Shown here piece after piece: positions 1,209 to 61,990 of a stretch of DNA of 64,000 nucleotides. Below the pieces are notes generated by a model. That model saw only the letters and a list, made by a program, of their open reading frames with translations. It was not told where the DNA came from and did no database searches. The stretch is from Candidatus Aminicenantes bacterium. Lineage in GTDB: Bacteria > Acidobacteriota > Aminicenantia > Aminicenantales > UBA4085. The stretch spans positions 1-64,000 of the forward strand of contig JAPKZJ010000114.1 of NCBI GenBank assembly GCA_026393855.1, written 5' to 3'. How positions within the stretch are numbered: position 1 is the stretch's first letter; each line of letters begins with the position of its first letter. The position numbers and the translations under genes were made by a program.

Positions 1209-1258
1209 ATGAGCTCCCGTATCCTATACAACGGAGGGCTGTATTTATTCCCGACCGT

Positions 1259-1264
1259 ATTATA
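1259..1264 (-). promoter_or_regulatory. possible -10 box for the sigma-factor operon
   Basis: A perfect TATAAT on the minus strand about 50 nt upstream of the sigma-factor start. No convincing -35 box lies at 16-18 nt, so an alternative sigma or activator may be needed. Confidence 0.3.
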
Positions 1265-1308
1265 GAACGAACCGAGGCCTCCGGGGAGGCCGGGCCATCG
1301 TCTCTTTT

Positions 1309-1338
1309 TTGCCTGCTTCTTGTTCTATGCTATATAAT
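1309..1338 (+). promoter_or_regulatory. promoter reading into structured repeat copy A
   Basis: TTGCCT (1309-1314), 18-nt spacer, TATAAT (1333-1338). An alternative register TATATA (1331-1336) with an extended TGC is also possible. Transcription would begin inside the first bases of the repeat at 1336-1483 and continue to the acyl-CoA ligase. Confidence 0.6.
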
Positions 1339-1483
1339 AAACCCGCTCGATACCCCGGGCTTTAGCCCGCCCTCATCCGCTTCGCGGCTGAGGGCTGCAA
1401 AGCCCGGGGTATTAGCAGGATTAATACTGAGCGGTGCTTATGACCCCGATTTGAAAATCGGGATCTCAGCGCTGCGAACGTAT
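1336..1483 (+). repeat. structured dispersed repeat, copy A (two hairpins)
   Basis: 148 nt, matching 61825-61974 in the same orientation. It has a left flank AATAAACCCGCTCGA, a hairpin with 13-bp arms (1351-1363 with 1399-1411), a spacer containing TACTGAGCGG, a second hairpin (GCGGTGC...GCGCTGC outside, CCCGATT...AATCGGG inside) and the right flank GCGAACGTAT. The 24-nt core at 1370-1393 is the exact reverse complement of the core in copy B (61858-61881). Outer stem pairs that are G-C in copy B are G-U compatible here. Together with the promoter and this element the stretch 1209-1540 holds no gene. Confidence 0.9.
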
Positions 1484-1540
1484 GAATCACGGCCTCCGGC
1501 TTGCTCGGCCGCCGAGGACAATTTTTTGGGAGTATAGTTC

Positions 1541-61768: not shown

Positions 61769-61797
61769 ATCATAGTCGAAAGCCATTTTGACATCAA
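61769..61797 (-). promoter_or_regulatory. promoter of the LOG-family gene
   Basis: TTGATG (61797-61792), 17-nt spacer, TATGAT (61774-61769), 21 nt ahead of the start. It overlaps the divergent promoter at 61788-61816. Confidence 0.6.
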
Positions 61798-61816
61798 TCG
61801 GACGCTGTGGTATTTA
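61788..61816 (+). promoter_or_regulatory. promoter reading into structured repeat copy B and purO
   Basis: TTGACA (61788-61793), 17-nt spacer, TATTTA (61811-61816), ending 8 nt before the repeat at 61825. Confidence 0.65.
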
Positions 61817-61824
61817 ATAGCCCG

Positions 61825-61974
61825 AATAAACCCGCTCGATACCCCGGGCTTTGCAATCCTCAGCCGCGAAGCGGATGAGGGCAGGCGCAAGCCCGGGGTA
61901 TGGATAGGGTTCATACTGAGCGGCGCTAATAACCCCGATTTTATAGAAATCGGGGTTTGGCGCCGCGAACGTAT
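61825..61974 (+). repeat. structured dispersed repeat, copy B (two hairpins)
   Basis: 150 nt, same order and strand as 1336-1483. First hairpin arms are 61840-61852 and 61889-61900; the 24-nt core 61858-61881 is inverted exactly relative to copy A. The second hairpin has an uninterrupted outer stem GCGGCGC/GCGCCGC and inner stem ACCCCGATTT/AAATCGGGGT. It ends GCGAACGTAT, 16 nt before the purO start codon, and occupies essentially the whole leader. Confidence 0.9.
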
Positions 61975-61990
61975 CGAACAAGGAGCCGAA

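Follow-up and report, generated by a model that had tools for sequence, protein, structure and literature searches.

At the left ends of IS200/IS605 transposons, according to a published rule, the guide is a tetranucleotide that precedes the hairpin foot on its 5′ side (PMC6006769). TTGAT is the target of ISDra2 (PMC2806898), preferences at the +1 position after the target have been reported for IS608 and ISDra2, and IS608 has been retargeted by engineering (PMC5934647). REP/RAYT elements of class 3, with a CnGA 5′ foot, occur in Acidobacteria (PMC6006769). In addition, inversion of hairpin loops by template switching has been documented in rRNA genes (PMC8794818), and template switches at quasipalindromes have been documented in E. 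coli (PMC7202029). Here, we describe a dispersed element, P, that is best read from its sequence as a non-autonomous, single-stranded element of the IS200/IS605 type (PATE/REP-like) and whose insertion sites, like those of IS200/IS605 transposons, appear to be chosen through base pairing. Two copies lie in the window, by which we mean the whole 64,000-nt stretch of Candidatus Aminicenantes DNA that was analyzed, with the following features:

1337–1481, minus strand: copy 1 of element P, in the A form with a forward insert and with ~40 homologues; boundary carried over from copy 2, whose empty site is known, and from the end of flank conservation.
1350–1412, no strand assigned: hairpin 1 of copy 1, the minus-strand right end, with arms ATACCCCGGGCT/AGCCCGGGGTAT; from fold and sequence.
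1362–1400, plus strand: 39-nt insert X in hairpin 1 of copy 1, forward (A); score 31 forward, 8.5 reverse.
1429–1475, no strand assigned: hairpin 2 of copy 1, the minus-strand left end; from fold, kept in all copies.
1465–1467, minus strand: proposed guide triplet of copy 1, CTC on top and GAG on the minus strand; from covariation across 95 copies.
1482–1486, minus strand: target pentanucleotide TTCAT of copy 1, genomic flank; from flank comparison across copies and the empty site.
61826–61972, minus strand: copy 2 of element P, in the B form with a reversed insert; from the empty site in the sister genome G002.
61839–61901, no strand assigned: hairpin 1 of copy 2; from fold.
61851–61889, minus strand: 39-nt insert X in hairpin 1 of copy 2, reversed (B); score 27 reverse, 5.5 forward.
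61957–61959, minus strand: proposed guide triplet of copy 2, TTG on top and CAA on the minus strand, matching target TCG in two of three positions; from covariation across copies.
61973–61977, minus strand: target pentanucleotide TCGAT of copy 2, whose ATCG is present in the G002 empty site; from the empty site.

Read on the minus strand, copy 1 directly follows its target, with TTCAT at 1486–1482 and the element running from 1481 down to 1337. The first-pass annotation had reported that the core of hairpin 1 is exactly inverted between two otherwise co-linear copies and that neither copy adjoins a transposase, and both observations held at the coordinates it gave. Positions 1370–1393 (CCCTCATCCGCTTCGCGGCTGAGG) are the exact reverse complement of 61858–61881, the longest exact match being 25 nt, and outside the inverted core the repeats are co-linear. 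With copy 2 inverted, hairpin 1 as a whole was identical in 58 of 65 aligned columns, compared to 52 of 66 without inversion. The core is near-palindromic, with only 5 of its 23 positions reporting orientation, but the asymmetric bases flanking it and the other copies remove this doubt. Both window copies folded with z-scores of about −9 to −11 relative to shuffled sequences, on either strand. Genes for an ECF sigma factor and an AMP-binding enzyme neighbor copy 1, genes for a lysine-decarboxylase-like and an IMP-cyclohydrolase-like protein neighbor copy 2, and no transposase or recombinase was found among these neighbors. Each copy sits upstream of both its neighboring genes, which are transcribed divergently (window 1209–1540 and 61787–61990).

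The window's genome (G000, a 3.68-Mb draft in 144 contigs) contains ~40 copies of P, 36 of them with both hairpin-2 anchors; by the same both-anchor measure, the sister species G002, of the same genus, has 38 copies, and the genome G001 has none. Genomes of a second genus of the family carry ~10 copies each, and an exact-pattern scan also found P in Aminicenantes, Acidobacteriota, and several deltaproteobacterial/Thermodesulfobacteriota MAGs. The copies are gene-less, intergenic, and chromosomal, measure ~110–180 bp, and hold two different hairpins in fixed order. An Rfam search at E up to 1 returned only chance miRNA models and no family for P. Some copies lack all of hairpin 1 or retain its left arm only, as a 94-bp form (L035 and L042 in G000; L071, L075, L076, L079, and L080 in G002), and the 94-bp form has apparently been amplified in G002. 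A distinct subfamily in G002, with left end TTAACCCGTTAGACTCC (L050, L062, L065, L066, L068, L070, L072), has mostly TTCAT targets matched by the guide TTC. In a Thermodesulfobacteriota MAG (L176, ~3460), another small palindrome (CCCTTCAACTTCGTTCAGGACAGG) occupies the tip of hairpin 1.

Hairpin 1 occurs without an insert (S form, CCCCGGGCTGAAGCCCGGGG), with the 39-nt insert X after GGGCT (A form), with the A insert plus 31 nt, 70 nt in all (C form), or with the A and C inserts reversed (B and D forms, respectively). We scored each interior against the insert in both orientations. Against itself, the forward 39-nt insert scores 39, compared to 6 when its reverse complement is used; for the 70-nt insert, the corresponding values are 70 and 2, and every inverted copy scored 27–64 in reverse and 2–7 forward. 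Among the insert-bearing copies in G000, seven were forward (A: L001, L002, L003; C: L005, L006, L019, L033), eight were reversed (B: L004, L007, L010, L013; D: L008, L009, L017, L031), and one was one-sidedly palindromic (the hybrid L029), with L019 classed by eye, without an orientation score, and the divergent L038, which has palindromized arms, standing outside the count. The interior of hairpin 1 is truly reversed in about half of the insert-bearing copies in this genome. The first-pass annotation had described a dispersed two-hairpin element with flip and flop interiors, and had allowed that the other copies might all share one orientation or that there might be only two; the genome-wide search and orientation tally that it suggested instead bore out the description, with many copies, two insert sizes, and both orientations.

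In G002, ten copies bear an insert, and all are forward or one-sidedly palindromic; none is fully reversed, despite the same arms. Comparing copy flanks between G000 and G002 revealed no shared insertion and hence no orthologous copy for comparison of flips. The left arm has given way to the right arm's reverse complement in L029, L052, L061, L063, and L202, the last a copy of a different family, Q, and S-form tips carry TGAA or TTCA. The innermost tip is GGGCTGAAGCC in six of the eight reversed copies, whereas simple inversion of the whole A or C interior predicts GGGCTTCAGCC; L001 and L007 compare as expected for a full flip, tip included. Q is a second dispersed multi-hairpin family (L112, L114–L116, and L182–L209, in G010 and G011), often compound, that has CCCCGGGC arms and insert X in common with P and is otherwise unrelated. 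X was always the same way round in the ~30 Q copies read.

One insertion is visible at base level. At the site of copy 2, the flanks in G002 (contig C136) join with a 6-nt gap, compared to 153 nt in the window; G002 reads AATAGCCCGAATCGTCGCAGGAGCC, and the window reads AATAGCCCGA, the element (ATAAACCC...GAACGT), and ATCGAACAAGGAGCC. The empty site has CCCGA followed by ATCG, with a two-base AT microhomology that makes the cut ambiguous by 2 nt. Thus, ATCG is genomic and predates the insertion, the target was not duplicated, and, because ATCG pre-existed, the element follows TCGAT on the minus strand. G001 has no element at either window location. The right flank of copy L010, TCAGCGG, is genomic in G002 as well, and G001 has TCA there; for L002, the right-hand orthologue was not found, and hence this locus gave no second complete empty site.

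Across copies, the flank is mostly TTGAT, TTCAT, or TCGAT, the target is followed by T in 75 of 89 copies and then by a random base, and flank conservation reaches +3 on the right and breaks off at −3 on the left. This T agrees with the +1 base preferences published for IS608 and ISDra2. Hairpin 2 carries, at its inner-stem foot, a triplet that varies with the target. Guide and target matched at all 3 nt in 46 of 95 copies (shuffle mean 24.9, maximum 37 in 10,000) and at 217 of 285 positions (shuffle mean 178.3, maximum 196), and the two inner guide positions agreed in 60 of 64 classifiable copies; after correction for relatedness, ~4 independent guide changes are left, too few for significance. 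In both window copies, the match extends to only two of three positions (in copy 1, to target TTC; its proposed guide, read on the minus strand, immediately precedes the inner hairpin foot on the 5′ side). The position of the guide at hairpin 2 fits the published IS200/IS605 rule. At the right end, we found no convincing or covarying guide candidate, and a terminal ATAAACCC/GGGTTAAT pairing was seen by eye.

None of the three Y1 genes in G000 is flanked by P, and BLAST of P and Q against these three loci gave nothing convincing. Of the three Y1 genes in G002, two lie within ~200 bp of a P copy (L238, L247), which suggests a REPtron-like partnership, but no more. These two loci are syntenic with Y1 loci of G000, and P is nearby in G002 only.

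We favor, with moderate confidence, the reading that P is an IS200/IS605-type (PATE/REP-like) element with guided insertion, that its interior was inverted by template switching, and that the flips spread by transposition. The copy number, both orientations of the insert, one empty site at base level, and the matching of guide to target are seen in the sequences; the single-stranded route, the transposase, and the strand switch are inferred. We infer that P would move as single-stranded DNA by means of a putative Y1 (HUH) transposase acting in trans, with hairpin 2 as the left end and hairpin 1 as the right end on the minus strand. A guide of 3–4 nt at the foot of hairpin 2 would pair with a target TTGA, TTCA, or TCGA, followed by T, and P would insert 3′ of the target without duplicating it. 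At its tip, hairpin 1 holds X, a quasi-palindromic insert of 39 or 70 nt that on this reading has been repeatedly inverted, one-sidedly palindromized, or lost. Inversion would most likely arise during replication of the single-stranded hairpin, by a template switch between the palindromic arms, and flipped forms would then be multiplied by transposition; S forms would result from repeated loss of the insert through slippage between direct AAGCCCG repeats. Strand switching is favored because inversions of several sizes, one-sided palindromization, and loop losses occur together and because loop inversion has precedent in the literature; its expected products are inversions of different lengths, one-sided palindromization, TGAA/TTCA tip changes, and losses that run precisely from one short direct repeat to the next. 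Against the favored reading stand the unturned tip of six of the eight reversed copies, the lack of full flips in G002, the weak backbone tree, the lack of a transposase tied to P and of a convincing guide at the right end, the few independent guide changes, and the two-of-three guide matches in the window.

A serious rival, possible but considerably less probable in our judgment, is that the insert is copied between the tips of P hairpins by gene conversion or ectopic strand switching and enters in either orientation via the palindromic arms (mirror insertion). On a tree built from P backbones without the insert, which has weak support (stars on 3 of 41 branches), insert state changes between S and insert-bearing forms 15 times, compared to a shuffle mean of 15.6, and is thus scattered like shuffled labels, as import would have it; L048, with the insert, and L059, empty, even have identical backbones. 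The unturned tip of most reversed copies is expected if a reversed X entered the other side of an intact tip, although a second small flip fits as well. Import also gains from G010/G011, of another genus, in which the same X sits between similar arms in the unrelated family Q. However, insert-bearing and empty copies are intermixed on the tree in G002 too, yet none is reversed there, slippage between the AAGCCCG repeats gives S forms without import, and a search for free-standing X in G000 found only P copies and their remnants. Orientation changes at least five times among insert-bearing copies on the backbone tree, and a single clade of reversed copies was rejected (AU p = 0.031), whereas B alone or D alone as a clade was not (p = 0.295 and 0.287, respectively). 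More than one inversion event is likely on this sequence evidence, but a single inversion followed by exchange between copies could mimic several. We give in-place strand switching the edge over import because it also explains the palindromized arms and the losses.

The first-pass annotation had likened the inversion to viral terminal flip/flop made by hairpin-primed copying. That flip and flop are a by-product of the transposition cycle, through copying primed by hairpin ends as in viral terminal hairpins, would suit the near balance of the two forms in G000, but we consider it unlikely: hairpin 1 is subterminal and internal to a precisely inserted chromosomal element, and no full flip was seen among the ten transposed, insert-bearing G002 copies or the ~30 Q copies, all of one orientation. 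With P best read as an IS200/IS605-type element, a flip of the viral terminal kind is not supported. In the broad sense of strand-switch copying, by contrast, the annotation's proposal comes near our favored mechanism. Very unlikely is that P represents a structured RNA or a terminator dispersed in some other way, with the pairing as an RNA pseudoknot; its folds are strong, but it has no Rfam family, and the bases that pair on the 3′ side belong to genomic DNA that was there before the insertion. We give still less credence to a site-specific invertase acting on the arms, the annotation's other suggestion, which would account for an inverted segment between palindromic arms but not for rearrangements of several sizes, including one-sided palindromization, and no recombinase adjoins either window copy. 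Assembly error, conceivable in a draft of 144 contigs, is extremely improbable in view of eight reversed loci with unrelated flanks and two insert sizes.

The flip is genuine and recurs, a structural oddity carried by a variant of a familiar type of mobile element. Its tens of copies offer a natural series for counting inversion, palindromization, and loss of hairpin interiors, with inserts far longer than in published loop inversions, and P presents apparent natural retargeting, within one genome, of a guide-directed single-strand element, achieved so far by engineering IS608 (PMC5934647). We tentatively raise the possibility that the palindromic arms form an orientation-blind cassette slot in which quasi-palindromic modules are gained, lost, flipped, and exchanged between P and Q, such that the tips of single-stranded elements would be swappable parts and guide changes would retarget the element to TTGAT, TTCAT, or TCGAT.

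Like ISDra2, other IS200/IS605 elements, and PATEs, P has subterminal imperfect hairpins at both ends, as judged by folding. It shares with ISDra2 insertion 3′ of a TTGAT-type target without duplication, as seen in one base-level empty site of the TCGAT class with 2-nt ambiguity, and with IS200/IS605 a guide complementary to the target at the foot of the left-end hairpin. Unlike IS200/IS605 elements and PATEs, P is gene-less, is only ~110–180 bp long, and has no transposase tied to it; also unlike IS200/IS605, it has several target/guide classes in one family, its guide lies inside an outer stem, and a right-end guide was not recognized. P resembles REP/RAYT systems in its intergenic location, tens of copies, and hairpins, possibly in the P copies beside Y1 genes (two of three in G002, none of three in G000), and class 3 in particular in the CTGA at the 5′ foot of hairpin 2, where the GT[AG]G guide of the REP/RAYT hairpin foot is absent, but it differs in having two different hairpins in fixed order and target-guide variation. 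As in parvoviral terminal hairpins, a hairpin interior occurs in two orientations; unlike them, P is an internal chromosomal element without viral genes or terminal resolution and is not at the end of a linear replicon. Finally, as in the loop inversions of rRNA genes (PMC8794818), the loop of P would have flipped where it stands, held by its paired arms, and the stem would have been corrected, but those loops are mostly 4 and up to 7–8 nt, whereas the inverted interiors of P measure ~39 and 70 nt and have been multiplied by a mobile element.
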